A stretch of DNA of 64,000 nucleotides from Carallia brachiata (Eukaryota > Streptophyta > Magnoliopsida > Malpighiales > Rhizophoraceae). Shown one piece after another: positions 1,286-62,660 of the stretch. The notes under the pieces are model-generated. The model was given only the letters and a program-made list of their open reading frames with translations. It did not search any database and was not told the origin of the DNA. The stretch is taken from NCBI GenBank assembly GCA_021464245.1, contig JADCRB010000075.1, forward strand, positions 2,161,706 to 2,225,705. The letters are read 5' to 3'. A program made the position numbers and the translations under genes. The stretch's first letter is position 1, and each line of letters opens with the position of its first letter.

Positions 1286-1321
1286 GCAGTATGGTAGCGT
1301 TAACATGTTCGTTGTATGCCA

Positions 1322-1356
<35 letters not shown>

Positions 1357-4983: not shown

Positions 4984-4984
4984 G

Positions 4985-4996
4985 TGGTATCAAAGC
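4985..4996 (+). promoter_or_regulatory. Primer-binding-like site
   Basis: TGGTATCAAAGC is the common plant Copia primer-binding sequence, complementary to the 3' end of initiator methionine tRNA. It lies two bases after the LTR. Confidence 0.65.
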
Positions 4997-5029
4997 TAAT
5001 TGAGCTTTAATTCCAACATATAATAGGGA

Positions 5030-8354: not shown

Positions 8355-8870
8355 TCACTACTAGCATTGAGATTGGGGAAAAGTTTCAATTGTAAATCTA
8401 AAAATCGATAATATTTAATAATGAGTAGGACATATGAACTAACAATTTTCTTCTATTAAACTACATTTGGGGTTGATGCAAAGAGCTTTTTTTTTTTTTT
8501 TTTTAGAGAGGATGGAGAGTAGTTTATTCTTTTAAATCATTTGAAAAAAGATTGTTTTTTCATCTACTATAAAAGCTTTTATCAGCATATAAAACTGTTC
8601 AATTTATTAATTTGAAGTTGGTCTAATAAATAGGGTTTTTTTTTCGGGGGGGGAGGAAGGGTGGGTGGGAGAAGATCACCGTCATGACTGATTTAAGTAC
8701 TAGGATGTTTCCAAAAGTACTAAGATGTTTGTCAATGAATTCATTGCCACTTTCTAGAATCTTGATCTTTTTAAATTTTAAGTAAGAAATCAATCCTAAA
8801 ACCACCCAGCCCTCCCCCCACCCCAAAGTGAAACCAGCACCCAGAGTGGTCCCAAAGTGAATGCGATATC
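8355..8870 (+). repeat. Dispersed module, second copy
   Basis: It matches 3241-3760: a GTTGATGCAAA block followed by a T run, AAGTACTAGGATGTTT-type sequence, then TGGTCCCAAAGTGAATGC. A G-rich tract at 8645-8672 and a C-rich tract near 8810-8823 are local expansions. No gene. Confidence 0.65.
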
Positions 8871-8974
8871 CAAAATGTTCTTTTGATGTATATCTTATCT
8901 ACACAAAGTGATTGAAAAGAAAAGAAAAAAACACTACAAGATCAAATGGAGGAATCACGTGAGCATAATATTTT

Positions 8975-9410
8975 TGAACTTTTTTCCAAGGAGAAAAAGG
9001 GGATCAATTTGTTAACTTTGCATTTCATAATTGGGCAAAAAACGAAAAAAAAAAATCCCATAAAATTTATGGTAAAAATGACTTTTTATTTTTATTATTT
9101 AAGAAGTGGATCTCTATTGAGTAAAATGAGTTAGATATATGTCGTTGTCATGTTCTATGAATTGAAGCTATGCATGCACAAATTATGAAACCATCAAGTG
9201 GGGTGGTTTCTGATCAATTGAATGTTTTGGTGGCGTAACTATGCAGCCTGCATGTGATGGGCATCAAAGCCACACTATTTGGGTGCAATTGAAAATTTTA
9301 GACCTATTATAATAAGAAGTAAGATCTCAGTCACTCAATTATTGAGACCAAAAATGAGTTGATTGCTCCACACATGTTATATTGCCAGAATTGGGATCAA
9401 TATCATTAAA
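8975..9410 (-). repeat. Inverted repeat arm, right (partner 5030-5525)
   Basis: This is the reverse-oriented counterpart of 5030-5525. It contains TGATGGGCATCAAAGCC and a CCATCAAGTGGGGTGGTTT block. No coding sequence was recognised. Confidence 0.7.
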
Positions 9411-10465
9411 TGCACATATGATTTGAGATGTTTTATTTAGAATTAAAGAAATACTTGTTGGATTAACTTCTATTGGACTCACCAAATATAATTGAAAAAA
9501 GTAGTTATTTTATTGTCAAAATTTTATTTTCATACAATTATAATAAGCAAAATCACTTTTTAACGCTTTTCTTACTAAAAGTATGTAATAATAAGTGTCT
9601 GTAATATTCTCCTTAGATTTAATGGACGGATGCACTAGTTAGAAACATTTGAAGGACATTTTAGTCATCTAATATGTTTGCTATTAATGTGACTGTAAAT
9701 ATTAAGAAAAGGAGCAGTTAAAGAGTTTAAAGAGAGACCGTATAACTAGCATGCGAACAAGGCAATTTATGAAATAGAAACGGTAAACTTCATTTCCTTT
9801 GTTGTCTATTGAGATTGGTCAATACTTATCTTTTTCTTTTTTTTTCTAAAAGAAAAAAAATAGAGAGTTGATTGATCCTGAACTACCGCCATGGCTCTGT
9901 TTACATGTGTCGTAATTTTTTAGTAGCCTTCTGCCCTTAGCTAGAGGATGAAGAAGAGACGAAATTTCAAAGTAATGACTCGCCAAAAAAGAATAATTAA
10001 AATTTTTTCAATAAATTCTCTAACACTACTCACTGTCACTGATTAGTGGCATTGGTCCTATTGATCACAGAAAAAATGAGAAAAAGTACAAAAATAAAAA
10101 AATGAAAAAAAAACAAAACAAAAATAGATAGCGGTGAAGCATCCACACACCAAAATATAAGAGTGCTGCGTGTCGGATATATGACGGACACACGGCGGAC
10201 AGGTGTCCTATCTGGTTAGAAGTGTTCGTTAAAAGAATTCTTTTTATAAGAATTCGGGCACAGGTATCAAACACGGGAAGTACGAGTATCGGACACGCCA
10301 CAGACAAGTTTGAAAATTTTTATAATTAATTTTAACAAATAAAAAAAGAAAAATTTTTAAAATTATGATTTAATGTTGTCATTTGTTAATGACTCTGAAG
10401 ACTTTCGAAGTTTAACTTATTTTTAATTTTAACAAAAAAATTAAATTGATTATAAATTTTATGTC
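9411..10465. other. Unannotated stretch with a GC-richer patch
   Basis: No gene is recognised. A patch at about 10160-10310 is richer in GC than its surroundings and repeats GGACAC/GTGTCC-type motifs in both orientations, as seen in some plant MITEs. I could not define its ends. Confidence 0.45.
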
Positions 10466-10646
10466 CGTACTTAGGCACTTCGCAACAAAGAGTAGAGGAA
10501 CTTACAATATATTTTTTAAAATAAAAATTTTTAAAATCTATGATAATTATATAAATATATTTTTGATTATTCTCAAGTGAATAAAATTTATAAAATTGTT
10601 GAATATATAATATACAAAAACTTTATAACTCAATTTTATAAGCTCG

Positions 10647-10677
<31 letters not shown>

Positions 10678-11761
10678 CTAAAATTTGAATCATTACAATT
10701 AATTGAAAGTATTTAAGAAATCAATTATATTTTTTCCCTTTTGACATGTGAGAAAAGTTAAATAAGATATGTCTATGTATCATTGCACCACAATAAATCC
10801 TCATAACAAAAATGTTAGTTTGAATACTTTTTTTATTTTTTCTTCATCTTATGAGACAATAAACACATAGAAATGTTAACCCAACTATGGATACGAGACA
10901 TAAATATTTTCCACTCTCTTGAAAATATGTAAATGAATCCAACCAGGCTTTCTTTTGTTGAGCACAATAATATGACCATCCGAGTTAAGTAAGAAGAAAA
11001 AGAATTTAGTCTAAAGTTATAAAGCAACAATCCCAATATGTTGGAAAGGGATCCAATGAAGCCTATATATGTCTCATGTTATATGTAAACTTTGTTGATT
11101 TTTTTTTGGTCTCATATTAAGAGTTTTTATGATTCATGAAGAGTTGTTACTGGTGCTCTATATGTCCTATGTGAAGTCCAAACCTTATTGACAATTTTTT
11201 GTCCTATAATTAAAGTCTGATTTATGAGGAGTTGTTGAGCGTCCTAACAAGTAGCACTCGTCCAAAGTATCTCTTACCATTCTACCATTTGATTGAAATT
11301 TAGAACTTTTTCGACAAGTAAGATGCCCATAAAGCTTTAAAAAGGTTTTACCGCTGGATACTGTACTATCATGCAATTTAACAGTTGAGTTAAATAAAAA
11401 AATAATTCTCGTTGACATCTTTATTTAATTTTTTTCATATAACTTTCTTTATCAACCAAATATTGTCGAGCCCGAATCGATTGCCCATATCTCCTAATGG
11501 TGTTGGCAAATTTAAAACTCAACCACGCGTTTTGTGAATTATTATTATTATAAGGGGCAAGAAGTTGAGTAGAAACCCCTTTCTTATGTACATTTTTGTA
11601 TGTTTGGGATTTGCTGACATTGTTTTTTTTATTCCAAATGATGTGTTGATGAGGTTCTAGCAAATCTTTTTGTACTGTGGCGGATACCAAATGTACTAGG
11701 AAATAAATTTTTAATTACACTTTAATTATGAGCCTAATAACTAATCAACAATTCTCTTAGG
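10466..11761 (+). repeat. Large direct duplication, copy 2
   Basis: This is the near-identical counterpart of 1-1285. It joins repeat family 2 abruptly at 11762, whereas the first copy continues into the next tandem unit, so the duplicated block was cut at CTTAGG. Confidence 0.85.
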
Positions 11762-13905
11762 TAGTAAGGTTGTCTATCCTCTTTCTTTTCCACTTTCAAT
11801 ACCCTAGTTATCCTCTAAAATTTTCAAAATCCCAAAAAACATTTTGAAAAATAATGGCATCTATTTCACCTTGATCTCGCATTGCATCGGTCTACTTGCA
11901 AAAATATACCCAACAATTTTTGGGAGCGATTATTTGCAATGGTTGCCAATTTGTTGTATCGGTTGAAATATTAAGAAAAAAAATATTTTGCCGAATTGGA
12001 AGCCACCTTGCAAAAGAAAAAAGAGCAAATCGCCAAGCACTCTTCATAATATAGATTATATTAAAACACACTTCCTAACACACACTTTATAGCAATACTG
12101 GTAAAGAAATTTTAAAAAAAATACTTTATATATAGGACATTAAATTAAACACACCATACTTCATAAAGAAAACACCAAAGAAAAGATTTTTTCATTCAAA
12201 GAAGTAGCAATAGAAGCAAAGAAGCAGCAGCAAGGCCTTCCAAAATCTTTTTCCCCAGCATCTTCTTCACCTGGAAAATTAGAATAAATGAGAAAAAGAT
12301 TAAAGCAAATAGAAACACATTAGAAAAAAAGAAGAAGGAAAAGAGAATATTTAATGAAAGTATCATTTTTGGCATAGATAACATATATACACCCGCGGAG
12401 GGATTTAACGCTTGAAACATTATAAGTGTGCAGCAATCCCAAAAAACTTATTTAGATCAATGACACGAGGATTCCTCAGTTAGAGTTTGAGAAAGCAATC
12501 GTAGACAAAAATTGGATCATAAGTCTATGATTAGAATAGGGCGGCCATAACTGAGTAACACATTTTGGTTGGAACAAAACTACCCCCAATTCTTATGTAA
12601 CTTATGCAAGGGAATAGAATGTCATTGATATTTTTGCAAGAGAGACTAGCAAATTGCTTATCGACCAAAAAGAGAAGAGTGAAGATGAGGAATAGAAAGA
12701 CTAATTAACCTCTTCAAAATTGACTGAACTGGTTGTTTACTTCTTTATGTAAGGACTGATGTTGTCTGCCCTCTTTCCTTTTCCCTTTAAGTACCCTAAT
12801 TAATCTTTAAAATTTTCAAAATCCCAAAGATCGCTTTGAAAAAAAAAATGGCATCTTTTTTACCTTGATATCGCATTGCATCAATCTGCTTGCAAAAATA
12901 TACCCAACAAGTTTTTGGAGCGATTGTTTACAATGGTTGCCAATTATGTTGTATCGATCAAAATATTAAGGAGAAAAAAAAATATTTTGCCAAATTGGAA
13001 GCCACCTTTTAAAAGAAAAAAAAAGATGAAAACAGAGACTACAGGAGCAAATTGCCAAATAGACTCTATAACATAGATTATATTAATACACACCATAACA
13101 TACGCTCTATAATAGTACTGATAAAGAAATTCTAAAAACTCACTTTATATATAGAAGATTAAATTAAGCACACCATATTTCATAAAAAAACATACCAAAA
13201 TCAAATGTTTTTTTTCATTCAAAGAAGCAGCAGCATCAGAAGCAGAGAAACAATAGCAAGACCTTCCAAAATCTTCTTCCCCAGTGTCCTCTTTGCTTAG
13301 AAATTTAAAAAAAAAAAATGAAAAGATGATTAAAGCAAAGAAAAGACACTCAAAAAAAAAAAAAGAAAAAAGAAGATTTAATTAAAGTATATTTTTTGGT
13401 ATAGATAACATATATATACCCGTGAAGGCATTTGATGCTTATTGCAGGTGTAAGGTAGTTCTCAAAACTTTTTGAGATCAATGGCATGGGAGTGCCCATG
13501 TATAACTTGAGGAAGCAGTCGCAGACAAGAGTTGGGTCAAGAGGCTGTGATTGACTGGAATAGCTGAGCAGCACATTTTGGTTGGAACAAAACTGCCCTC
13601 AATTCTTATATAACTTATGCAAGGGAACAGAATGTAGCCAGTTTTGTTGCAAGACGGACCAGCAATTTGCTTATTAGCTGAAAGGATAAGAGTGTAGATG
13701 AGGAATTGAAGGACTAATTAACCTCTTTAAAATTGACTAAACTCATTGTTTACTTTTTTTATATAAGAAAGATTGTCTATCCTCTTTCTTTTCCTGTTCA
13801 ATACCCTAATTAACCTCTAAAATTTTCAAAATCCCAAGAAACGCTTTGAAAAAAAATTTGCATCTTTTATACCTTGATCTTGCATTGCATTGATTTGCTC
13901 CCAAA
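11762..13905 (+). repeat. Repeat family 2, three more copies in tandem
   Basis: Copies start at about 11762, 12710 and 13720, roughly 1 kb apart. Each begins with the CCTCTTTC tract and the AAAATTTTCAAAATCCCA block, and the first two continue to an AGAAGCAGCAG-type block near 12220 and 13220. On the minus strand 12196-12260 and 13200-13290 both read as a basic stretch ending in a leucine run, which suggests a decayed exon of an unrecognised gene. No copy is intact. Confidence 0.65.
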
Positions 13906-14260
13906 AAATTTTCTTACATTGCCTCGTAGAGAGCTCTAAAAGTAGTATGAGATATTTTAGTGACTCATATAATGATCCAGATGATGAAAGAATCAACATG
14001 GCTTTTATGGCAAAAGAAGATGAGGCAAATTCTGAACTTAACTCTTATAATGATTTTTACTTTGATAAATTGCATGACATAGTAAAACGCAAGAATAAGG
14101 AGCACTCAAACATAGTTGCTAAAAACAAGAGTCTCAAGGCTCAAGTTAAATCTTTGAAACATGCAAATTTTTCCTTGGAAGATAGAAATACTTTTTTTGG
14201 CAGATAAAAATGCTGCTTTGAAAACCCTTTTCGAGCATGAGAATGTTTGATTAAAGGAAG
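13905..14260 (+). pseudogene. Copia gag fragment, plus strand
   Basis: The frame contains an acidic segment followed by a lysine- and asparagine-rich coiled-coil-like segment (MAFMAKEDE, then KNKSLKAQVKSL). This is typical of the region just after the UBN2/zinc-knuckle part of plant Copia polyproteins. It stops at 14205-14207, and similar sequence continues in another frame to about 14260. It is an isolated scrap fused to repeat family 2. The family assignment is by remembered similarity. Confidence 0.6.
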
Positions 14261-17429: not shown

Positions 17430-18430
17430 AATTTTCCATCTTCAACATTTTTGGTTAATGATGTCATAAACATATGTTCCTCTTGAATTTCATTCTCTAT
17501 GAGATTTTCTTGTTAAACTTACTACTTTGACTAATTTTATTGTTGTTCTTATTACTTGTTTTTACAATATTCTTCAAAATGTTCAAACATCATGCAGTAT
17601 TTGTATTGAGGTTTGCTCTTCCAATAGCAATCACTTTCAGCATGATTAGTTCTTTTGTAAGTTCCACAAGGAGGAAACTGACATCTATTGATGTTTTAAA
17701 CTTGCTTTTGCTTCTCTTTGGAGTCGTTCTCATTAACTTCATTCTCTATTTTTAAAAGCTAAATTGATCTTGTGCATAGCTTGGAAAGCACCTTCTATTC
17801 TTTTCTCTTACCTCATGAATCTTTTTTGCTATTGAGCTTGAAGAGCATTGATAAGTTCTGGTAAACCGATTGGAGGTTAAGTCCTTAGAGTCTTCTAAAG
17901 AGGAGGTTTTTGCCTCAAATTTCTCCTGAACACTCACTAACACCTTTTGTGTAATATTCTTATCAGTGAAATCTTTCCCCAATATCCTTATTTGCTTTAC
18001 AATCTTAAGGAGTCTATCATTGTACTCCTTGATTGTTTCTACTTTTTTCATCTTGAAGAGCTCGAATTCTCTCTTGATGTTGACTAATTGCATGGTCTTG
18101 GTCTTCTCACGACTAGAAAACTCTTCCTTTATCCTATCCTACGCTTGCTTGGTTGTTTTACAAACGATTATCTTGTTGAAAATGGTCTCTGACATTGGTA
18201 AATGTATACAAATCAAAGCCTTATACTGTTTTGCTACTTGATCAATATAGTTCTTTAGTTGAGCCACAATAAGATTTGCTAGAAGAGGCGTCGGTGCTGC
18301 ATTATTTTCAGTCACTTCCCATAAGTCAAAAGCTTTTAAATATGCTCTCATATGAACTGTCCGCTGAGAATAATTATCTCTAGTGAACTGAGGTGGTGGG
18401 ACAGGTGTAAACCTTGAAGAAGTTATGAGT
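17430..18430 (-). pseudogene. Copia gag (UBN2-type), copy 1
   Basis: Gag would form the particle core of a Ty1/Copia element. The minus strand has the UBN2-type start (MRAYLKAFDLWEV, near 18351), a central REFELFKMKK block, a KFEAKTSSLEDSKDL segment, and a knuckle-like CGTYKRTNHAESDC near 17660. There are at least three defects: an in-frame TAG at 18139-18141 where the family usually has tryptophan, a frameshift after about 17880, and Cys to Tyr in the knuckle. After the knuckle only a short acidic tail remains before the LTR. Protease, integrase and RT are absent. Confidence 0.8.
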
Positions 18431-40650: not shown

Positions 40651-43600
40651 TTACAGCCCAACATCATTCTGGTGCTTCACTATCAGAGGGCTTCTCACTT
40701 TGTGCTTGCCATCAGACCATGTCAATCTTCCAAATACATATCCTTTTGGCCGTTGCTTCCTATCAACTCTTAGGGTAACTTGGAATGTTTTTTCTTCCCC
40801 AATTTTCGTAAACGTTAACCTTTTAGGCTTCACAGAAACTCGAACTCCTTTGGTGCTTTAACATGGACAGTGTATTTGCTGGGAGAGCCAACATTTTTAA
40901 CAATTCGATTAATTGTTATTGGGCTGTTGAAATTAGGAACAGTGATTGAAGGATAGTTGAAGTTCAACAAACTTAATGACTTGGGGCACGAGTATGGTTT
41001 AGAAGAAATTAATCTTGTTTGGCTCTCGCTGTAGCCAAGAGCACATAAATAGTTTAAGTAGTCATCTCCGACCGAGTCATAAACCAAGCCAGGATTCACT
41101 GCATTATTTGGATTTACAAATCCTGCCCCGCGAGCGAAGGGAGTCGCCTTGCGATTACTGGCTAAATCAACTAACGGTTTTCTGTTGTTATCAAGTGTTC
41201 TTGCTGCCAAGAAAATAAAAACAAAAAATTACCATGGCCAGTAGAAAATAACATTTTTAGCTACCCACTTCGCAGTTCGTAAGTCTTTTTGATGTTGTAA
41301 AAAAAAGCATGCATAAACAATCATTTATACCAGTGGTTATGATTGCAGAATGAATGGCGGCAGGACTCCAGTCTGGGTGGACTGCTCTGAGAAGGCCAAC
41401 AACTCCAGCAACATGAGGAGCTGCCATGGATGTGCCAGTCATAACTGCAAAAGAATTTTGAGGCTCTCCTCCTAATTCTGAACAGTTTGCAGCAATTATA
41501 TTAACCCCAGGAGCAACTACGTCAGGCTGCAAGATATAAGTCACGTATTTTTTTTTTGAACCGAAATATGAGTCAAATATTAAATGTATTAATGCACAAC
41601 ATTTTAAATTCTTATACTTATTATGTAACATAAGAAATAACGAATGATTAATAAGCTGACCTTGAGAATCGATTCATCTACAGGATTAGGACCCCTGCAT
41701 GAGAAGCCTGCAACAGCTGGAGCAGGTTTTGTATTCAAATACATCCTTGAGCCTCTGATACGCGCAATAGGATTCCTGTCATGAGCATGCATGTTTGCAA
41801 TCTATATTCAGTGGCCAAGATCAAAAAGATTTTGATGCAGAGACATAGAGTTTGTGGGGGATGTACTTAGAAGAGTTGATATAAGCAGAAGTTAATTCGC
41901 TATCAATGAAATTTAGGTCTGCCGCCGGAAGCATGTAATGGTATGCCTGAATTTTGTTTTGATTTTTATTATCATATGTTACGATCATCCCAACAGCACC
42001 AGTACGGAGAGCCTCAATTTCTAGCTCATTTCTGTCAACAAAGTCATAAGGGCACACCAATTTTTTCCTTTGACCAACTCCGGATCAAGGGTCCCTCCTG
42101 AACATATCCTGCAGCAATAGTTTTTGCATTTACAAACCAATAATAAGACAACATTGCTTATAATAGATAATTATTCGAGAAACGAAATTGATAGATTAGA
42201 TAGTTACCCAAAATTCTCAGCTGACTTGTTGGTCGCTTTCATGGCGCTGATCAATGTATAAAATTTCCCTTCTGCGGATCCATTAGTTGAAAGGCTTACT
42301 CCCTAGAGATGAGAAAACAAGACAAGTAGTCACCTAAATAACTTAGTTTTATTCGGGAAGATAACTACTATAAAATTGATTATGCGCACATGTAAACAAA
42401 AATTATTCACATGTAAACGAAAATTATTCATTACATTAAATCGCTTCCCATTTCCAAGCGTCACAAAAGATGTAAATTGACGATCAATTGTGGCAGCACC
42501 AACAGTTAATATCCAAGGAGCAGCATGGTTTACATCCCCTAGTGTTCCATTATTACCAGCAGAACCAACCACAACAATGCTTCTCTGAACAGCATGAAAG
42601 GCAGCAATGGCCGTGGCATCGCTATAGAATTCCCCCTTGCTACCAAGAGAAACCGAGATCACATCGACCCCATCATATATTGCAGCATCCATAGCAGCCA
42701 TAACGTCTGCTGTCATACATGTAACCCCCAAGATTTCTAAATCCCAGCATGCCTTGTAGGCTGCTACTCTAGCATTTGGTGATCCGCCTTTGGCAGTTCC
42801 ATTGCTAAGGCCATACACATTTGCTCCTGAAACAAAATTTCCTGCTTCCAGTGTAGGTAATGTAACGTCAGGATTTGAACCTGTGACCAACATAGACTAC
42901 TTACCAACCAAAAAAAAAAAGGTTTACTTACCTGCTGCAGTTGACAATGTGTGAGTTCCATGACCATAGAAGTCACGTGAAGTGTAAAAGGAAGAACCGG
43001 CTTCATGGCTTAAGTTCAAAGCCATAGCAGCTTTGTTAAAGTACCTTGCCGAAATTAGCTTCCTGGGCGTTTATAATATAACAATTATTGCATGGTGGCA
43101 ATCATTTAATGAAAAAAAAAAACAAAACAGTGGAATATTCCAATTTACAGCAAATTCTTTAAGGAGGAAAAATTTTGGTTCTACATAATCAGCTAGAGAG
43201 TTATCTGATAATAACAACGGATGGTTACTCAAATTTACAAGAATTTTTTATATTGGCATAATGATATAATGAGGAATCTTAATAAACAAAAAAAAAACCA
43301 GCTAGATGGGATGGTATTATCATAATGACATTTTATCATTAGTAGAAATTAAAAGGATATTTAAACTGCATATAACCTGACAAGACATTAACTCCTAACC
43401 AAGTTGCATGGGAAAATTAAGTTACTAGAAACATTTTGCAGCCAAATTGGGTCTTGAGAAAAAAAAAAAAGCTAATTCAGACTCTTTTTACTCAACATTA
43501 ATTTGGTTTTGAGTGCATTATACTGCTCAAGAAAAAGAATACAGAGGACCTGTTGCAACGAACTCCATTGTCATCATTTTGACAAAAACCTCGCCATCTT

Positions 43601-49992: not shown

Positions 49993-49997
49993 GTAAT

Positions 49998-50806
49998 TGT
50001 AAACATCATTTTCAAAGAAAAAAAAAAAAGTCAAAATTGGCGTTGCCGATTTCAAAGTCGGCAACGCCAACTTTGAAAAATATTTTCAATTAAAAAGATT
50101 CCTTTCCCATGTGATGTTCACATGGGAAAGGAACCCTATAAATAGGCCCCTACCCCCCAGTTCAAAACATATTCAGCAAATCTGTAAACAGAAAAATCCA
50201 GAAAATTTGAGAGAAAAAGAAAATTTTGAAAATCTTTTAAGAAAATTTCTCCTTTTCTTACGTGCTTTTACTCTGCAGTATACTCTCCTAACTCCTTTTT
50301 TACAGATATTTCAGGGGTAAAGCCCAAAAAATTTGCTGTTTCCATTTCTAAAGTTATTTTTAAATTTATATTCTCGGATCGCTCTAGATCTGAATTTCTG
50401 AGAATATAGATATAAAAATATCAAATTACTACAAATCCGGCTGGGATTAAGCCTCATACGGCTCTCAGCAAAATTCAGACAGCTCATCCGAGAACAAGTC
50501 CATTTGACTCTCGGTGAAATTAAGTCAGATCGGCTCAGATCAGCTCTCTGCGGTTCTTAACCGTAGTCAAAACGTCCAAATCAGATCCAATTTCAGTCTA
50601 CCCAGTTCAAGAAAAAGCTGTGGAAATTATTTCTGTCAAGATCAAGCTCGTGCAGCCGTTGACGGAGTCAAAAAAAGGAACACTAATCGGAGGATTTACG
50701 GAGATCGACCCCACGTAAATTTTCTTTTATTTTTACAATTTTTATTTGTAATTTATTTCTGTATTTTCGAGTTTAATTGTTTTAGGCTCGAAATTTACGC
50801 TTTACA
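49998..50806 (+). repeat. 5' LTR, Tat element 1
   Basis: It starts TGTAAACATC and ends TTTACA. Two perfect inverted repeats sit upstream of the TATA box: TTGGCGTTGCCGA with an 8-nt loop (50037-50070) and CCTTTCCCATGTGA with a 3-nt loop (50101-50131). The TATA box TATAAATA is at 50137-50144. Confidence 0.92.
50037..50144 (+). promoter_or_regulatory. U3 hairpin pair and TATA box of LTR 1
   Basis: The hairpins have 13-bp and 14-bp perfect arms; the second ends 5 bp before TATAAATA. In the 3' LTR the first has one mismatch (58407-58440) and the second keeps 12-bp arms. Both could bind a dimeric factor or form a stem in DNA or RNA. Confidence 0.7.
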
Positions 50807-50812
50807 AATTTT

Positions 50813-50830
50813 TGGCATGCTCGGTGGGAC
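50813..50830 (+). promoter_or_regulatory. Primer-binding-like site, Tat element 1
   Basis: TGGCATGCTCGGTGGGAC lies 6 bp inside the LTR. It closely matches the site at 62568-62585 in the second element. I cannot name the tRNA with certainty. Confidence 0.6.
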
Positions 50831-50861
50831 TTCTTCACCTCCCATCTCTTGTTCCTTTTAG

Positions 50862-51027
50862 AAAAAAAAAAAAATAAAAGAGGTAAAAGGGGAGCCGAGA
50901 GAGAAAAAAAAAACAAAAAAGTAAAAAAAAAAGTTAAAAAAAAAGTAAAAAGTAAAAAAAAAATAAAAAGTTAAAAGTTAAAAAGTTAAAAAGTAAAAAC
51001 AAAAAAAAGTAAAAAAAAAAAAAAAAT
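50862..51027 (+). repeat. A-rich tract 1
   Basis: Runs of A broken by GTAAAA and GTTAAAA motifs, directly before the gag-like ORF. Confidence 0.9.
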
Positions 51028-51050
51028 TTTACAGGTGTTCTGCACATCAA

Positions 51051-51837
51051 ATGGCACCAAAAAGAAGTACAGCTGCCGGTACCAACAAAAAAGCAACGGC
51101 TCCACTGCCTGCATCAACTACCCTACCTGGGTACGCAGGACCACAAACCCGCGGACGGACACAGTTCCTTGCCACTCAATTGAGTCCACAGACTCTCGCA
51201 AGAACAAAGTTCCTCGCCACCAACAAAGTTAAAATTGAGGACTTGCAGCTCACACAGCAGTTAGATTTCTCACGTGACTCTGTCACTAAACAGAGGAGTC
51301 GATCACCTACCCCTACCGAAGTTAGGGGTAGAGCATCAAATCCCTGCCCAACAGCAAAATCCGACCTATTCTGCACAAACAAACACAGAGGAAGAAGAAG
51401 ATCCCTCTACTCCAGTCTTCTATAGAGCATCAAATTCTGCTGAACAGTAAAATCTAACGCGTTGTGCTGAAACAAGTCAGGAAAGATCCGACGGGCCCTC
51501 TACAACAGTCTTCCGTGGAGAACCATCTACCGCTGCTGATGTCAGGCTGACCAACACCACCAGAATAGAAAAAATGTTTGCAGATTTAAACCGCGGATAT
51601 TCGCAGCTGATTAGCGGATATGCACAGTTGATTGAAAATATGAAGGAATTAAGACAGCAAATAGATGACGTTAACAAAGGGCTTCACCAAGCCCAACCCG
51701 CTGATGCAGTCAACCGCGAAGATCGTCCTCAATCATCTCGATTTGGGGGCACAGTTTTTAGCCAATCGGACCAACAGAAGGACGAAAGTACCGACTCAGC
51801 CACAAGCTCATTTCCAAGTGGGAGGGGTCATGTCTAG
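51051..51837 (+). pseudogene. Truncated gag-like region
   Basis: The ATG at 51051 (GCACATCAAATGGC) opens a 124-residue basic, Ser/Thr-rich frame ending at 51425. A second frame, 51574-51837, contains a coiled-coil-like part (SGYAQLIENMKELRQQIDDV). No capsid domain or zinc knuckle appears before 52943. In the second Tat element a similar coiled coil leads into a full capsid domain, so here only the gag N-terminus seems left. Confidence 0.55.
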
Positions 51838-51934
51838 TTCAAAAAAAAATGCTTCCATGTTATCAGGTCAGAAATGCATTTCGACCTGACCCAATAAAGC
51901 AGGTAAATTTCGAACTACTGTTATGTCAAAAAGA

Positions 51935-52068
51935 ATAAAAAAAAAATTCTCAAAAAAAAAAAAGAAAAAAAAATTCAAAAAAAATTCAAAAAAAAAATTC
52001 AAAAAAAAATAAAAAAAGCAAAAAAAAAATTCAAAAAAGATTAAAAAAAAGCAAAAAAAAAAAAAAAG
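51935..52068 (+). repeat. A-rich tract 2
   Basis: A runs with TTCAAAAA interruptions. It is followed at 52125-52260 by CAAATCC/CAAATTC-type repeats. The same order recurs after integrase (56269-56680). Confidence 0.88.
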
Positions 52069-52259
52069 ACGTCTGAAGCTCTTGTGCATTTTCAGAACCC
52101 TTCATCAAAATTCAAATTTAGATTCGGGGGCAAATCTCAAATCCCGACTCAAATTCAAAGCCAAACATAAACTCGGTTAAACTCGGGCTCAAACCCAAAT
52201 CTAACTCCAATCCAAATCCAGATTCGAGGGTAAAACTTAAACCCTGAATCAAAGTCCAG

Positions 52260-52395
52260 CTCAGCAGCTCAATAGCTCACCAAACAGTTCAGTAGCTCAA
52301 CAGCTCAGCAGCTTACCAAACAGCTCAGCAGCTCAACAGCTCAACAACTCAGCAGCTCAACAGCTCAGCAGCTCACCAACTCTCCGGCTCCACAG
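52260..52395 (+). repeat. CAGCTCA minisatellite
   Basis: Many copies of CAGCTCA, CAGCTCAAC and CAGCTCACC run up to the TATA-module array. Confidence 0.85.
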
Positions 52396-52413
52396 CTCAC
52401 CAGTTCACAAAAT

Positions 52414-52631
52414 ACTCCTGTCTCGCACGAGTATAAAAGGCGAACACTCCACAATTCAACACTCCTGCCTCGCACGAGTATAAAAGGCGATAATCAATCC
52501 ATCACAGTTCAACACTCCTGTCTCGCACGAGTATAAAAGGCGACATCACAGTTCAACGCTCCTGCCTCGCACGAGCATAAAAGGCGACACCACAATTCAA
52601 CACTCCTGCCTCGCACGAGTATAAAAGGCGA
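52414..52631 (+). repeat. Five-copy TATA-bearing tandem module
   Basis: Copies at 52414-52443, 52461-52490, 52514-52543, 52557-52587 and 52602-52631, spaced 43-53 bp apart. Each carries CTCCTG then CGCACGAGTATAAAAGG (CGAGCATAAAAGG in copy 4). The TATAAAA core fits a plant TATA box, and the array lies about 300 bp before the pol frame. A single related copy precedes the homeodomain ORF (56684-56714). Confidence 0.85.
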
Positions 52632-52819
52632 CAATACAACAATGCAGACCTAACAGGTGAGAAGCAGCCACAGCCTGCCGAACTTTGCCTGTAGGAGGCT
52701 CCATCTGCAAGCACCATCCATTCCTACACTATGTGTCGAAGTCACGACGTCTAGAAGGTTAGCCCCCTTTCCCTTTTTTTATTATTGTACTAATCTTAAA
52801 TAGGAGGAAGGACATACCC

Positions 52820-55800
52820 AACCCGAGTCAGAAGTGCTTCGAAGACAGGCTTATCCAGTCAAACAAAGAAGGTGAAGTCAGAGGTTCTACATTTCATGTC
52901 ACAATTAGCGAGGAGGCTGAGTCTGACTCATCAGACGGTGAAGTGAAGGAGGCTCCCCCGGAACTTGAAGATGGTGGCCAAGCAACTGTTGATGAACTCA
53001 AGGAGGTCAATCTTGGCTCTCCGGAAGATCCTCGACCTACATTTGTAAGTGCTTTACTTACTGCAGAAGAAGAGCAAGAATATGTTCAGGTATTAAGTCA
53101 ATACAGGGACGTGTTCGCATGGAGTTACAAAGAAATGCCTGGACTTGACCCAAAAATTGCGGTGCATCGTCTAGCAGTAAAGAAGGGTGTTCGTTCTGTC
53201 AAGCAGCCACAACGACGGTTCCGCCCGGAACTCATTCCACAAATCGAGGAGGAGGTAACAAGCTGATCAATGCGGCTTCATCCGAGAGGTCACCTACCCA
53301 ACGTGGATTGCCAACATTGTCCCGGTAAGAAAGAAGAATGGACAGTTGAGGGTATGTGTTGATTTTCGAGATCTTAACAAGGCCTGCCCGAAAGATGACT
53401 TTCCGTTGCCCATAACGGAGATCACAGTCGATGCAACAACGGGTCACGAAGCATTGTCCTTCATGGATGGTTCTTCAGGCTATAACCAAATCAGAATGGC
53501 ACCAGAAGACGAGGAGTTGACAGCATTCCGCACCCCAAAAGGTATATACTGCTACAAAGTTATGCCGTTTGGATTAAAAAATGCTGGCGCCACTTATCAA
53601 CGTGCTATGCAAAAAATTTTTGATGACATGCTGCACAAGATTGTAGAATGTTATGTTGATGACTTAGTTGTAAAGACTAAGAAGCGCAAAGACCACCTCG
53701 AGGATCTCAAGACAGTGTTCGAAAGACTTCGGAGGCATCAGCTCAAAATGAACCCTCTCAAGTGCGCATTCGGTGTCACATCAGGAAAGTTTCTTGGGTT
53801 CGTGGTGCGCCATCGTGGAATCGAAGTTGATCAGTCAAAGGTTGAGGCAATTCAAAAGATGCCTGAACCTAAAAACCTGCACGAGCTGCGAAGTCTACAA
53901 GGAAAGCTGGCTACATTCGCCGTTTCATCTCCAATTTAGCTGGGAGATGTCAACCTTTCCATCGGTTGATGAAGAAGGATGTCAACTTCGAGTGGGACGA
54001 AGCTTGCAGCAAAGCCTTTGAGCATAAAGAAGTACCTTTCCAATCCACCGGTCCTAGGTGCTCCAATTCAAGGAAAGTCGTTGATTCTCTACATTGCAGC
54101 GCAGGAAAGATCTTTGGGAGCCTTGCTTGCACAGGAAAACGAGCAGGGAAAGGAAGTTGCCCTGTACTACTTGAGCAGAACACTAAACGGTCCGGAGCTG
54201 AGTTATTCGCCCATTGAAAAGACATGTCTAGCACTGTTCTTTGCCATTGACAAGCTGAGGCACTACATGCAAGCTCACACGGTACGTCTCATTGCCAGAG
54301 CTGATCCTGTCAAATATATCTTATCTAGACCAATCTTGTCAGGACGACTTGCCAAGTGGGCAGTAATCCTACAAAGCTACGACATTGTCTACGTGCCTCA
54401 AAAAGCAGTCAAAGGACAAGCTCTAGCAGACTTCCTTGCAGATCACCCTGTTCCGTCAGATTGGGAGTTCACAGATGATCTTCCAGATGAAGAGGTCTTT
54501 TACATTGAGACACTGCCACCATGGACGATGTTCTTTGATGGTGCAGCAAGGCGTGATGGTGCTGGTGCCGGTATAGTGTTTGTCACTCCTCAACGACAAA
54601 TACTACCATATGCTATCATTCTCGGTGAGTTATGTTCAAATAATGTTGCTGAATACCAGGCTTTGATCATTGGTCTTCAAATGGCTGTCGATATGAAGAT
54701 TCCAACTATAGAAGTCCATGGAGATTCCCAGCTCGTCATCAACCAACTTACAGGATTGTATGATGTTAAGAAAGAGGATCTTGCGCCTTACCATCAACGT
54801 GCTCGACAGCTAATGGATGAATTTGAAAGCATCACCTTGGAGCATGTGCCTCGACGAGAAAACACTCAGGCAGACGCGTTGGCTAACCTGGCCACTTCTC
54901 TTGCAAAGTCAGAAATCCAGGCTACAGTTGTTGCCGTATGCCAGAAATGGATAGTGCCACAAAGGATGATGAAGAAACTACAGCAGCCAACGCTGTATCT
55001 GTACGTCTCGCGGAGGACGAGGATTGGCGCCAACCAATCATTGACTACCTACAGCACGGGAAGCTGCCCGAAGATCGTCGTCATAAGACAGAAATTCAAC
55101 GACGAGCTCCCCGCTTCATATATCTCAAGGATGCTCTGTATCGAAGGTCTTTTGATGGAGTTTTACTTCGCTGCCTAGCAATGAAGAGGCAAAACAGGCT
55201 CTCACTGAAGCACATTCTGGTGTTTGTGGCGGACATCAATGGGCCTAAGTTGCACTTCCAACTCAGAAGGATGGGATACTACTGGCCAACCATGGTACGT
55301 GATTCATTGAGTTTGCTAAAACTGTCAAGCTTGTCAATTTCATGCGAATTACATACATCAACCACCGGAGCCACTGCATCCAACTGTCTCATCCTGGCCC
55401 TTTGAAGCTTGGGGTCTCGACTTAGTGGGGCCCTTGCCAAAGTCATCCCTGGGTCACCTGTACATCCTCGCAGCAACCGACTACTTCTCAAAATGGGCTG
55501 AAGCCATTCCACTTAGAGAGGTAAAGAAGGAGCATGTTGCCAATTTCATCCGGACTCAGCTGATCTATCGCTATGGAGTCCCTCGATTCATCATCACTGA
55601 TAATGGTAAGCAGTTCTACAACAGCTTAATCGACAAGCTCTGCGAGAAGTTCAAGTTCAAGCAGTACAAGTCATCCATGTACAATGCCCCAGCAAATGGC
55701 TTGGCCGAAGCATTCAACAAGACCTTATGCAACCTGTTGCGAAGGTAGTCTCTAAATCCAAAAGAGATTGGCATGACAGAATTCCGGAGGCATTATGGGC

Positions 55801-56157
55801 GTATCGTACAACTTACCGGACTCCAACACAGGCGACGCCATACTCACTTGTCTACGGTGTCGAAGCAATACTGCCGTTGGAAACACAGATTCCATCCTGC
55901 GCATGGCTGTTCTGGAAGGACTCACACAGGAGGAGAATGCTCGCCTACGTCTGGATGAGTTAGAAGCCCTTGATGAAAGGAGGCTCGAAGCACAACAGCA
56001 ACTTGAGTGCTACCAAGCCCGGCTCACCAACACGTTCAACCGCAGGGTCCGCCCTCGATCTTTTCAAGTTGGAGACCTTGTTCTTGCAGTGCGACGGCCC
56101 ATCAACATGAAGCATCGGCCTGGTGACAAGCTTACTTCCAAATGGGACGGGCCATAC
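52820..56157 (+). pseudogene. Tat-type pol: RT, two RNase H domains, integrase, frameshifted
   Basis: The polyprotein would copy the element RNA and insert the cDNA. RT starts at 52943 and has the YVDD active site at 53652-53663. The usual Gypsy RNase H follows (about 53980-54430), then the second, archaeal-type RNase H (54531-54910; FFDGAARRDGAGAG, then QADALANLA). Integrase has a degraded zinc finger near 55195-55290 and a core at about 55400-55745 with the Asp, Asp and Glu positions in ATDYFSKW, TDNGKQF and AEAFNK. Frame breaks occur near 53260, 53925, 54020, 54945, 55185, 55390 and 55740. No protease was identified. Confidence 0.88.
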
Positions 56158-56268
56158 TAGTGCAGGAGGCCTACACTCACAACGCTTACATGCTGTCAGA
56201 CCAAGAAGGCGTCCGAATCGGCCCAATCAATGGTAAATTTCTGAAACAATATTATGTGTAAATATGTT

Positions 56269-56270
56269 TG

Positions 56271-56307
<37 letters not shown>

Positions 56308-56342
56308 AAAAAATCAAAAAAAAAAAAAAAAAAAAAAAAAAT

Positions 56343-56379
<37 letters not shown>

Positions 56380-56680
56380 CGGAAGTCCCGATCTGAAAGT
56401 CCAAGCGAAAATCCAAACCCAAAATCCAAACCCAAACACTTGAGCCCAATTCAGAAAACACAAAACCTAAGTCCAAAACCAAACACTCAACCAAATCAAA
56501 AGTCCAAACCCAAACACTCGACCCAAATCCAAAAAGTCCAAATCCAAACCCAAACACTCGACCCAAATCCAAAAATTCAAGTCTAGAAACCCAAACACTC
56601 AACCCAAATCCAATCCAAAGCCCAAAACCCAAAAATTCCAAGTTCCAAACACAGTCCAAAACCCAAGTTCAAAATCCAAT
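56269..56680 (+). repeat. A-rich tract 3 and CCAAACCC-type repeats
   Basis: An almost pure A tract (56269-56376) is followed by repeats of CCAAACCCAAACACT and CCAAATCCAAAA-type units to about 56680. This matches the order found before the pol region. Confidence 0.9.
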
Positions 56681-56683
56681 CCA

Positions 56684-56733
56684 ACTCCTGGCCCGCATGA
56701 GTATAAACTGTGAACGGCCCAAAAATATAAAAG
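56684..56733 (+). promoter_or_regulatory. TATA module and TATA box before the homeodomain ORF
   Basis: CTCCTGGCCCGCATGAGTAT (56685-56704) is a diverged single copy of the module at 52414-52631. A second box, TATAAAAG (56726-56733), lies 87 bp before the ATG at 56820. Initiation 30 bp after it would leave a leader of about 60 nt without an earlier ATG. Confidence 0.5.
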
Positions 56734-56819
56734 CAACGGAGGGTTTGAGTCTGAAACTCAGCATCAGTCTCAACCGATCTTCACCAACACCAGACCTTTG
56801 CTCCTCTGCCACAAGAAAG

Positions 56820-57176
56820 ATGGAACCAGTTGCAGAACCTCAAGACAAGGGAGAAGAAAGGTCGCCCCGCACAAGGTGGCAACCAACCATGGCACAACTG
56901 CAAATTTTGGAGGAAGTCTTCCACAACAATGGAGGTATTATGCCTAATGCATCTCAGATTTACCAACTTGTCTCACGATTGCGCCCACTCGGGGCAATCG
57001 AAGGAAAAAATGTGTTTTATTGGTTCCAGAATCGGAGAAGCAGGAAGAAACCAGCACTGAGAGCTGATTTTTTCAAAGAACAGTCTGCCGTTCCGATGGT
57101 AGATCCCACCGGTACAACTTCGCGTCAAATGAAGCAGGTCCGAGTTCTACCACTACAATGTCTCTTCAGGCTATAA
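56820..57176 (+). CDS. WUSCHEL-related (WOX-type) homeodomain protein inside a retrotransposon
   Basis: This is a 118-residue frame without defects. Residues 17-77 form a homeodomain: TRWQPTMAQLQILEEVF (helix 1), a long loop with NNGGIMPNASQIYQL (helix 2), and EGKNVFYWFQNRRSRKK (recognition helix with Trp, Phe, Asn and Arg at the usual positions). The first Trp and the WFQN Trp are 47 residues apart, as in WUSCHEL by my recollection. WOX proteins bind DNA and control stem-cell identity. No WUS box or EAR motif is visible in the 41 residues after the domain. An in-frame upstream ATG at 56697 would give 159 residues; I prefer 56820 because it follows the TATA box. The ORF is intact in an element whose pol is broken. 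Confidence 0.85.
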   Translation: MEPVAEPQDKGEERSPRTRWQPTMAQLQILEEVFHNNGGIMPNASQIYQLVSRLRPLGAIEGKNVFYWFQNRRSRKKPALRADFFKEQSAVPMVDPTGTTSRQMKQVRVLPLQCLFRL

Positions 57177-58367
57177 CATCAAAGTCGTAGCCCATGGGAG
57201 CATGCTGGTCCTGGTGGTCTTACGGAGTCAGCCAAGGGTTCATCCCTCTAGGTACTTAAGTTAGGAGGAATTTTTCTAGCAGAAAGGAGTCATTCCGGCG
57301 AAACTTTGCCTCTCTTTCCAGAATATTCCGGCAGCATCAACCAGCTGGAAAGCGACGTCAACATCATCGGCCCACCAGACGAGGCCAAGCTTGACTTGGA
57401 GCTGCACCCTGGGCCCCTCTAGGACGACCGACAAGATAAGGTGCAACGACTTTGGCAGCACACGGTAATGACTTCTGCAGCACACGGCAACGACTTCTGC
57501 AACACACGGTAACGACTTTCGTGACACGCGTCAGCCGCTGCCTCTTTTGTCTCTTATAGGAAAGGGACGTGGATGCCCTACTATTCTGCGTACCTTCTTT
57601 TTGACTTTTCAAAAAAAAAAAAAAAAAACTTTATCGTATGTGTATATATATCTTGCATTCCCGATTGTAATACTCACCCTCACTCTTCTTTCTCAAAAGA
57701 AATGGCTAGTCTCTGCACTTGTCTCAGGAAGTTCTTCGATCAAGAAGTTGGAGGCGCACGACGAACTAAAAAAAGAAGGAGTAGTCTTTCTCGAGGGGTC
57801 CCTAGAAACCCTCGAAACTCATTCTCCAACGCCATCGGTGTCATGGAGTTCCAACTACTCTCCTTAGTTCACATCTATCCAGCGAGCGAGAAGTTCTGAT
57901 CATCCTCCTGGATCTACAAATGCAGCGACGTGCAGGGAAGTTCCAACTACTCTCCTTACGTCGAAGCAGATTCGGGAATCATCACCATAACCCGTCTCTC
58001 TGTGCGCAGGTCTTAAAGTTCTGTAGTTCTAGACCTTCCTCTTGGGGAGGTTCAAGTTCTTTGCCTACCGGATCATCCTCACCAGAGCTCTGGAACTTTA
58101 AGACATATAAAAAATCCTTTGCGGGCTATGGAAGCTCGAATGCACCTGGAGCCAGAAGGTCAATTTTTATATTGGCTGGGCTGCTAACTTTCTCAAGATC
58201 GTATCGGATTCCTATTGCGATCCAACAACAGCAGGCATAGTCAAAGATAGAAGACTCCAAGATTCAATGTTCATCAGGACGTTTCCAAGTTTCAAACTGG
58301 ACTTCAATACTCAGTGCGGATCACGTCTGTAAAGTTTTTCCTTCCCGACCCTTGAAGTGGGGGCATT
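57177..58367 (+). other. 3' internal region of Tat element 1
   Basis: It contains four degenerate copies of a 22-bp CGACTTCTGCAACACACGG-type repeat (57447-57533), a poly(A) tract at 57610-57627, a short basic ORF (57702-57899), a duplicated AGTTCCAACTACTCTCCTTA (about 57846 and 57940), and a purine tract (GAAGTGGGGGCA, near 58354-58365) that should prime plus-strand synthesis. Confidence 0.6.
57702..57899 (+). CDS. Unrecognised small basic ORF, 65 aa
   Basis: The ATG (AAAGAAATGGC) follows a TATATATAT stretch at 57640-57650 by about 50 bp. The product has a basic cluster (GARRTKKRRSSLSRG) that could be a nuclear localisation signal. I do not recognise it, and it may be chance. Confidence 0.25.
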   Translation: MASLCTCLRKFFDQEVGGARRTKKRRSSLSRGVPRNPRNSFSNAIGVMEFQLLSLVHIYPASEKF

Positions 58368-59174
58368 TGTAAACATCATTTTCAAAGAAAAAAAAAAAGT
58401 CAAAATTGGCGTTGCCAATTTCAAAGTCGGCAACGCCAACTTTGAAAAATATTTTCAATTAAAAAGATTCATTTCCCATGTGATGTTCACATGGGAAAGG
58501 AATCCTATAAATAGGCCCCTGCCCCCCAGTTCAAAATATATTCAGCAAATCTGTAAACAGAAAAATCCAGAGAATTTGAGAGAAAAAGAAAATTTTGAAA
58601 ATCTCTTAAGAAAATTTCTCATTTTCTTACGTGCTTTTACTTTGCAGTATACTCTCCTAACTCCTTTTTGAGAGATATTTCAGGGGTAAAGCCCAAAAAA
58701 TTTGTTGTTTCCATTTCTAAAGTTATTTTTAAATTTATATTCTCGGATCGCTCTAGATCTGAATTTCTGAGAATATAGATATAAAAATATCAAATTACTA
58801 CAAATCCGACTGGGATTAAGCCTCATACGGCCCTCAGCAAAATTCAGACAGCTCATCCGAGAACAAGTCCATTCGACCCTCGGTGAAATTAAGTCAGATC
58901 GGCTCAGATCAGCTCTCTGCGGTTCTTAACCGTAGTCAAAACGTCCAAATCAGATCCAGTTTCAGTCTACCCAGTTCAAGAAAAAGCTGTGGAAATTATT
59001 TCTGTCAAGATCAAGCTCGTGCAGCCCTTGACGGAGTCAAAAAAGGAACACTTATCGGAGGATCTACGGAGATCGACCCCACGTAAATTTTCTTTTATTT
59101 TTACAATTTTTATTTGTAATTTATTTCTGTATTTTCGAGTTTAATTGTTTTAGACTCGAAATTTACGCTTTACA
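58368..59174 (+). repeat. 3' LTR, Tat element 1
   Basis: It is 807 bp, from TGTAAACATC to TTTACA, and keeps the TATA box and both hairpins in slightly eroded form. It is followed at once by the GTAAT target duplication. Confidence 0.92.
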
Positions 59175-59179
59175 GTAAT

Positions 59180-61693: not shown

Positions 61694-62561
61694 TGTAAAC
61701 AAGTAAATTAAAAAAAAAAAAAAAAGTGTTGGCAGCCGCCAACCTTGAAGTCAAGGTTAGCAGTTGTCAACCTAAATTGAATGCCGCCAACCAAATGGTT
61801 GGTGACAGACAGGCGGGAGAGGTCTATAAATTGGCCTCCCCCCAAATTGAATCAGGGCAGCAAGCGAAAAAAAAAAAAAAAGCAAACAAGAGAGAGAGAA
61901 GAAAAAAAAATTAAAAGTTTATCAAGAAAATTTTCTTTTGCGTACTCTGTGATATATTTCTTAGCTCTTTTGAAGAAGATATCTCAGGTACAAAGTCAAA
62001 AAAACTTTGTTGTGTCCGTTTTGAAAGTTATTTTTAGATTTATATTCTCCGATCGTATCAGATCTGGATCTGTGAGAGTATAGATCTAAAAATATCAAAA
62101 TATTATAAGTTCGAGTGGGATCAAGCTTCCTACGGCCCTCACCGGAGTCCAATCAATTCGAGTGGGATCAAACCTCTTACGGCCCTCACCGAAGTCCATC
62201 CAGTCCTAGTGGGATCAAGCCTCCTACGGCTCTCACCGGAGTCCATCCAATTCGAGTAGGAATCCATTTTCCGAGTGGGATCAAGCCTCCTACGGCCCTC
62301 ACCGGAGTTCAACTAATCCACTTGAGATGAAGCCTTGGCTCTCAGTGGAATCCATTTCCTACAGTTCAAGATCACGCTGTGGAAAATCAACATCTCTCGG
62401 TCAAGATTAAGCCTCCACGACCCTTGACTAAATTACACAGGAGCATTAATCGGAGAATCTACCCAGAGATCGAACCCGCATAAATTTTAAATTTTTATCT
62501 GTAATTTGTGTTTGTATTTTTCACAGCCTAATTGTTACAGGCTCCAAATTTACCCGTTACA
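61694..62561 (+). repeat. 5' LTR, Tat element 2
   Basis: 868 bp from TGTAAACAAG to CGTTACA, with the same end motifs as element 1 but a diverged body. Three short perfect inverted repeats (61728-61743, 61741-61758, 61787-61802) precede the TATA box TATAAA (61825-61830). The middle part has at least four GTGGGATCAAGC/CTACGGCCCTCACC-type tandem repeats (about 62117-62310). Confidence 0.8.
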
Positions 62562-62567
62562 AATTTT

Positions 62568-62585
62568 TGGCACGCTCGGCGGGAT
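62568..62585 (+). promoter_or_regulatory. Primer-binding-like site, Tat element 2
   Basis: TGGCACGCTCGGCGGGAT, 6 bp inside the LTR, matches the site of element 1 at 15 of 18 positions. Confidence 0.6.
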
Positions 62586-62660
62586 ATCTCTGCCTCCCAT
62601 CTTTTGCTCCTCTAAAAAAAAAAAAACCACAAATCCAGCATCGACGTTGTCACAATCACA

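Follow-up and report, generated by a model that had tools for sequence, protein, structure and literature searches.

The window analysed here is a stretch of 64,000 nucleotides of the Carallia brachiata assembly GCA_021464245.1 (contig JADCRB010000075.1, positions 2,161,706 to 2,225,705 of the forward strand). At window positions 49998-59174 of the plus strand it contains a long terminal repeat (LTR) retrotransposon copy which carries a WUSCHEL (WUS)-type homeodomain gene between the integrase and the 3' LTR; all coordinates below are window positions. This arrangement, together with clear LTRs and a target-site duplication, had been put forward in an original prediction made from the sequence alone, and it is borne out by our analysis. 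The LTRs, the pol domains and the accessory gene are located as follows.

49993-49997, no strand: target-site duplication GTAAT, left, the same 5 bp as at the right side
49998-50806, plus strand: 5' LTR, 809 bp, partner of 58368-59174
53346-53939, plus strand: reverse transcriptase (RT) piece, Pfam RVT_1 2.8e-33
53979-55178, plus strand: RNase H (RH) and additional RNase H (aRH), Pfam RT_RNaseH 1.6e-23, then RVT_3 6.7e-25
55425-55748, plus strand: integrase (INT) core, Pfam rve 1.9e-10
55795-56262, plus strand: INT C-terminal part and pol end, assigned by position (98-99% INT identity in the neighbourhoods described below)
56820-57176, plus strand: WUSCHEL-type accessory gene, frame open in the window copy for 118 aa and a stop, from the in-frame ATG 56820
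56871-57053, plus strand: WUSCHEL-type homeodomain, residues 18-78 counted from ATG 56820, assigned by Pfam, solved relatives and predicted fold
57303-57320, plus strand: WUS-box TLPLFP, in the same frame as the homeodomain, beyond stops in the window copy
57390-57404, plus strand: LDLEL, an EAR-type LxLxL motif, same frame, beyond stops in the window copy
58368-59174, plus strand: 3' LTR, 807 bp, partner of 49998-50806
59175-59179, no strand: target-site duplication GTAAT, right, the same 5 bp as at the left side

The accessory-gene frame is enclosed by the open reading frame (ORF) 56697-57176 (plus strand, 159 aa), which matched the Pfam Homeodomain family at 1.1e-12; its protein begins with MEP at ATG 56820, like the WUS protein P0007. 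The solved relatives retrieved by sequence were WUSCHEL (1.8e-18) and STENOFOLIA (5.3e-16). The AlphaFold2 model of the 118-aa frame reached a pLDDT of about 95 across the homeodomain and 72 overall, and each of the 10 Foldseek hits at E <= 0.001 was a WUS-HD or STENOFOLIA chain. With WUSCHEL (WUS and its orthologues) the gene shares the extra residue after helix 1 of the homeodomain, which aligns without gap to WUS and with a one-residue gap to other WOX proteins (28 of 82 compared homeodomains lack that gap), as well as the WUS-box TLPLFP and the C-terminal LxLxL motif. A TL.LFP word arose by chance, in any of the three frames of the stretch past the stop, in 44 of 20,000 random sequences. 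According to the accessible part of PMC7203112, R38, Q89, N90 and R94 read bases in the WUS-DNA structures, whereas K82, N83 and Y86 contact the backbone. All of these residues, mapped by alignment, are identical in the element homeodomain, which has R at the position of WUS K92, K at that of WUS R96, and R in place of S at residue 36. The element gene differs from WUSCHEL in its helix 3 (NRRSRKK) and shares only 46-50% of amino acids, over the homeodomain and adjoining residues, with either host WUS gene (L050 and L051, see below); its frame is intronless, and the gene is mobile and multicopy.

Two protein searches matched plant WOX proteins and no close copy of the element gene; no confirmed relatives were found in the viral and prokaryote collections, and Rfam gave no match at gathering score. 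Among the proteins compared, the Ipomoea entries P0011, P0024 and P0040 are short WUSCHEL-like proteins of 145-159 aa with an altered helix 3, and P0022, 161 aa long and unnamed, is by eye very similar to them.

The host genome (337.5 Mb, 164 contigs) was searched with the 118-aa frame, and at least 150 copies were found at 87-100% identity (the best 150 of 1821 candidates, window row included). Since only the best-scoring rows are counted, the true copy number may be higher, and intact frames are over-represented; a stop within the match was present in 10 of these 150 rows. The check that the original prediction had proposed for a family trait, namely whether pol and LTR neighbours recur around other copies, was positive in all 20 neighbourhoods that were fetched, 18 of which were chosen as rows with a 229-aa open frame and hence make up a biased sample. 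In each of them the INT region lies upstream of the gene at 98-99% identity (partial in one) and a related LTR lies downstream, several matching over the second half only. Three of the 20 have no RT-RNase H match; one neighbourhood (L013) lacks its 5' half and another (L025) ends at a contig end. Parts of both LTRs are contained in six, with pairs 89.8-100% identical over 207-701 bp. Copies were also anchored independently of the gene, by a DNA search with the INT end, in which the best 40 of 968 candidates were scored, these rows being 99-100% identical. A listed gene copy stands at the right distance and on the right strand in 19 of the 40 (window included), and the 5 fetched from the remaining 21 contain the gene too, so that it is present in 24/24 resolved INT-anchored copies, with 16 of the 40 rows outside that count. 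The outcome that would have spoken for a host gene, namely a single copy or host-gene introns, did not occur, and we regard both the identity of the WUSCHEL-type gene and its presence throughout the family as practically certain.

From the ATG, 19 of the 20 neighbourhood copies are open and intronless for 203-207 codons, which comprise the homeodomain, a linker and the C-terminal LxLxL; the WUS-box TL.LFP lies inside the open frame in 17 of the 20. Full-length frames carry ETLPLFP in 19/26 cases and C-termini such as VELDLELHLGPR in 17/26, neither of which falls inside the open frame of the window copy, where in-frame stops at 57174-57176 and 57249-57251 precede the WUS-box and LDLEL. The original prediction had described an undamaged frame with a complete homeodomain; completeness holds for the homeodomain and not for the gene as a whole, which ends early in the window copy. 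An intron at 57112-57279, with a weak donor, was considered for joining the homeodomain to the WUS-box; because the frame is continuous in the 19 copies just mentioned, we deem this model wrong and the window copy simply broken there. One protein search, the WUS alignment and a tree had used the resulting 144-aa spliced model, of which the homeodomain part is valid and the junction is not; in that tree of 85 rows the end branch of the element row, built on the rejected model, measured 2.81, and the row took no firm place among the others.

That RT and INT enclose not one but two RNase H domains supports the classification of the window element as Tat-type Ty3/gypsy, in line with the lineage first proposed for it. 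According to the accessible part of PMC6317226, aRH besides RH is the mark of the Tat clade, and aRH between RH and INT that of the Ogre/Retand group. RH and aRH were found together in one frame in the window copy and likewise in one other copy, and the position of aRH between RH and INT in one other copy, in which a single open frame has the order RVT_1, RNase H, RVT_3, H2C2 and rve. The domain order RT, RH, aRH, INT fits the Ogre/Retand group. The Retand mark Transposase_28, reported for 23% of Retand elements in the accessible part of PMC6317226, did not turn up in the three antisense ORFs scanned in the window element. A search with pol gave, as the best 120 of 1308, plant-type relatives with 54-73% identity, the exception among those listed being one short unnamed record with 84% over 56% of the query; these records came with no genomic context.

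The pol of the window element is split into several ORF pieces, and its 55795-56157 part has no Pfam match of its own. The contrast between a broken pol and an intact homeodomain, which the original prediction had stressed, is indeed seen in the window copy and is weak evidence in one copy. The LTR pair differs by 21 substitutions over 807 aligned sites with 2 gap columns (Kimura two-parameter distance, K2P, 0.027), half of which implies about 1.3% of change after insertion. Plant substitution rates are 1.3e-8 or 6.5e-9 per site and year, which would place the insertion at about 1 or about 2 million years ago. With so little change a stretch of 240 bp often escapes by chance, so that the evidence for selection rests on the other copies.

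Several comparisons bear on the age of the capture. A second related LTR lies at window 61894-62640 and is 72-75% identical, in aligned parts, to the element LTRs. On the contig downstream of the window there is an LTR with 94.9% identity to LTR 61894-62626 and 68-78% to the LTRs of the window element; upstream of it stands a complete, decayed gene copy (78% over 207 residues, two stops in the homeodomain region). LTR 61894-62640 is probably the 5' LTR of an element which runs off the window and which also carries a decayed accessory gene. In a search of the host genome with WUS protein, nine host WOX-like exons ranked first, among them L050 and L051, each with a WUS homeodomain and TLPLFP downstream, which we take as two host WUS genes; the remaining 141 rows have 38-49% identity to WUS and appear to be element copies. 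The homeodomain DNA of the two element copies tested is 58% identical to host WUS, with a longest shared word of 11 nt. Such low identity to the host WUS genes makes the capture old rather than recent; barring a transfer of the gene by recombination from one of the two LTR subfamilies to the other, it would predate their split.

Across 46 copies, the uncorrected ratio of nonsynonymous to synonymous differences per site (pN/pS) reaches 0.73 in the linker and 0.63 in the C-terminal part; the homeodomain has a ratio of only 0.07, or 0.11 when two groups of the copies are compared with each other. The dN/dS near 1 that had been named as the contrary outcome was thus not found. At synonymous sites the homeodomain shows a mean difference of 7%, and of 15% between the two groups, with hardly any change in amino acids. 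Counted as distinct variants in 45 copies (L033, with an early frameshift, left out), the nonsynonymous/synonymous (N/S) numbers are 6/17 in the homeodomain, 58/21 in the linker and 32/12 in the C-terminus. The homeodomain differs in N/S from the rest with a Fisher p of 5e-5, which becomes 0.02 for variants present in at least 2 copies and 0.04 for those in at least 3. Of the 23 columns that are near-invariant in the WUS consensus (P0046 and P0084 left out), the window homeodomain matches 21, and of the remaining 37 it matches 30%; none of 5000 neutral simulations run to the same overall identity retained 21 of those columns (mean 12; 740 were stop-free). Part of the homeodomain divergence from WUS may have arisen in the host before capture. 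The shared changes within codons 1-102 number 14 N and 15 S, where neutrality would give 2.4 N for each S (p 0.0096); in the whole of pol they number 11 N and 39 S. Constraint on the homeodomain is likely, not proven, while linker and C-terminus give little sign of it, motifs such as ETLPLFP excepted. That the homeodomain is kept for a function we hold to be very probable.

The regions ahead of pol and ahead of the accessory gene contain the following additional features.

51051-51837, plus strand: ORF pieces at the expected gag position, without Pfam match, "gag" being a positional guess
51678-51931, plus strand: decayed second copy of the integrase tail, ahead of pol, local score 57 against 56006-56262 (shuffle maximum 22, n=2000)
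52400-52640, plus strand: repeats with CTCCTG..CGCACGAGTATAAAAGG; GAGTATAAA at 52429, 52476, 52529 and 52617
56271-56376, plus strand: A-rich tract
56684-56732, plus strand: putative promoter-like stretch with CTCCTG..GAGTATAAA (56699-56707) and TATAAAA (56726-56732)

Pfam scans of 51051-51425 and 51574-51837 returned 0 families, and no capsid or protease domain was found among the scanned ORFs of the window copy. In another gene-carrying copy a Retrotrans_gag domain was found, together with a protease match too weak to pass the cut-off; the 5' part thus differs between copies. The stretch 51051-51790 has a full-length match of 96-97% in 5 of the 20 neighbourhoods, a partial one in 1 and none in 14, of which 2 are too short upstream.

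Ahead of the gene, the A-rich tract is followed by C-rich repeats, CTCCTG..GAGTATAAA and then TATAAAA. GAGTATAAA is conserved in 41/41 copies and TATAAAA in 40/41, which is evidence of modest weight, given how similar the copies are over their whole length. Ahead of pol there are four occurrences of a related motif with GAGTATAAAAGG, the similarity score being equalled by 3 of 2000 shuffles. These related repeats and the integrase-tail copy before pol indicate that the stretch ahead of the accessory gene is probably part of the element itself, and the arrangement suggests that pol and the accessory gene may each have a promoter of their own. The decayed integrase tail, the A-tract and the TATA-containing repeats before pol make up a partial duplication of the post-pol region, possibly the product of a template switch.

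Elsewhere in the window we observed, on the minus strand, pieces of a subtilase gene at 40830-42893 (Peptidase_S8 5.3e-11, fn3_6 2.3e-8) and a copia-type gag piece at 17752-18135 (Retrotran_gag_2 1.5e-11), as well as direct repeats of about 0.5-2 kb with 77-96% identity within positions 1-14000.

Taken as a whole, the explanation that we lean towards, with a confidence just above even, is that a WUSCHEL gene, captured by a Tat-type family, is kept as an accessory gene for a DNA-binding regulator. A Tat-type (Ogre/Retand group) element would have captured the gene long ago and retained it between integrase and 3' LTR in what are now at least 150 copies. A whole frame, as present in 26 of 46 copies, encodes one protein of about 207 aa with a short arm, the homeodomain, a drifting linker, the WUS-box and the C-terminal LxLxL. 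Transcription could start in the LTR or at the TATA-bearing sequence directly before the gene. The protein, most likely a nuclear DNA-binding regulator, would enter the nucleus and bind TGAA- or TAAT-type sites. The WUS-box and the LxLxL of WUS serve in co-repressor recruitment, and copies which have both may recruit TOPLESS-type co-repressors. The benefit to the element would most likely be altered gene expression in the meristem cells that give rise to the germ line. On whether the protein acts in trans on host or element transcription we are almost evenly divided, with doubt slightly prevailing, and co-repression through the C-terminus is a tentative and rather unlikely step. More tentative still is the idea that the captured and re-tuned WUSCHEL serves as the tropism factor of the element, influencing how genes are controlled in the stem-cell niche of the shoot and giving activity where insertions reach the germ line; the copies may in turn have spread WUS-like control through the host genome.

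Several observations weigh against this explanation. The 46 copies were picked via homeodomain protein searches, a procedure that favours conserved homeodomains. In the 5 INT-picked copies the homeodomain shows 2/5 and the rest 17/7 N/S, which points in the same direction and is not significant (p 0.078); two of the N changes sit in a copy with a nearby four-base deletion. Over codons 1-102 the shared (14/15) and single-copy (10/7) N/S numbers do not differ (p 0.55), whereas those of RNase H do (4/16 shared versus 30/10 single-copy). Linker and C-terminus change almost freely. The full frame of about 207 codons was present in only the 26 of 46 copies mentioned. A separate set of 20 copies, taken in order from the top of the 150-row list and hence biased towards the broken form of the window copy, mostly ends early. 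A 170-aa open frame was found in 12 of the best 150 of 1821 rows, and three such rows fetched from three contigs (L045-L047) have a common end after 148 codons and no WUS-box. A form lacking the WUS-box and LxLxL thus seems to have multiplied; this makes the co-repressor step less credible and leaves the DNA-binding step unaffected. Small deletions break the frame in all 5 fetched INT-anchored copies; in four the break lies within the homeodomain, and an identical one-base deletion is common to two copies, which could reflect the copying of an already broken gene. WUS-type sites (TGAA, TAAT) are not enriched in the LTRs or the 3' region, which argues against simple LTR feedback; self-regulation via the LTR was rejected on this ground.

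One-base indels in 45 copies, scored relative to one reference copy, comprise 27 deletions and 1 insertion, and such deletions could stem from assembly error as much as from decay. L058-L062 and others are very similar copies with many one-base deletions and hardly any insertions, a possible error of long-read assembly.

The broken frames, the multiplied truncated form, the near-neutral linker and C-terminus and the similar N/S numbers of shared and single-copy changes in codons 1-102 are also what would be seen if the gene were a passenger, captured once and copied along without benefit, its conservation being due to young copies and to the homeodomain-based picking; the 99-100% identity of the best 40 INT rows agrees with young copies. 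This alternative, which we consider unlikely while giving it real weight, is opposed by the synonymous divergence of the homeodomain with hardly any amino acid change, by the presence of the gene in a subfamily with an LTR identity of only 68-78% over the aligned parts, and by the failure of neutral drift from WUS to keep 21 of the 23 near-invariant columns.

Viruses and elements are excluded from stem cells in a WUS-dependent manner, and the element protein could interfere with host WUS as a decoy competing at WUS sites. The extra residue of WUS proper is kept, the WUS-box is present in 19 of the 26 full-length frames and truncated copies would still serve as decoys. Replacement of S36 by R in WUS altered binding at a TAAT probe, according to the accessible part of PMC7203112, and the element homeodomain has this very change. 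Nothing, however, separates a decoy from a general regulator, and we rate interference as distinctly improbable. About as improbable, or slightly more so, is a role of the homeodomain in guiding integration, in which it would tether the integration complex to certain DNA, like the chromodomain in chromoviruses. The DNA-contact residues are kept, the gene is coded directly after the integrase and the conserved part is the homeodomain, not the C-terminus; yet the homeodomain is not fused to the integrase, and at 15 loci with a 3' flank TGAA occurs at 1.60 per 100 bp beside the LTR versus 1.20 further off, and TAAT at 1.80 versus 2.10, a small test with no clear preference. Camouflage, the idea that an element escapes small-RNA silencing by carrying part of an essential host gene, is discussed for captured genes in the accessible part of a 2026 review (PMC13317346), but is very improbable here, since the 11-nt longest match to either host WUS locus and the 58% DNA identity are too little for shared RNAs of 21-24 nt. 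A host WOX gene that lies beside or inside a retrotransposon by chance is hardly credible and is refuted by the copy number, by the same neighbours in 20/20 cases and by the location of the host WUS and other WOX exons elsewhere.

The accessory gene can be compared with known systems. As far as the accessible part of PMC9289625 describes them, orchid Ty3/gypsy elements (Tat, Ogre-like) likewise gained a host-type functional domain, an AlkB N6-methyladenosine (m6A) demethylase, as an additional ORF kept over several subfamilies, although that is an RNA enzyme, not a developmental transcription factor, and the elements are 25 kb long. The same source mentions, without further detail, an Aegilops tauschii LTR retrotransposon consensus with a B3 domain, which is also a plant transcription-factor DNA-binding domain inside such an element but belongs to another family, and it states that the extra genes of plant retrotransposons mostly have no known relatives. 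Maize Grande gene23 and other additional ORFs (aORFs) share the position between pol and 3' LTR, and gene23 encodes a nuclear protein with its own promoter; it is antisense, however, and such proteins have no clear similarity to others, according to the accessible part of PMC7264820. In Retand elements with Transposase_28 ORFs, the region between pol and 3' LTR codes for an accessory protein that is suspected to bind DNA, but these ORFs are antisense, and no sense ORF there coded a known domain in the accessible part of PMC11963269. Among the open-access papers listed by literature searches, some of them aimed at WUS itself, we saw no homeodomain or WUSCHEL gene reported as a retrotransposon component, which is no proof of absence. 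Domain capture by Tat-type elements is known already, and what seems to be new is a WUSCHEL gene as a fixed component.

The use of the extra genes of retrotransposons is a standing question. Here the accessory gene derives from a very well-studied stem-cell regulator, whose motifs are known, whose complex with DNA has been solved and from which clear predictions follow. The purpose of an accessory gene thereby becomes directly testable, and the question arises whether the stem-cell niche of plants is a target of mobile elements that use a stolen regulator.
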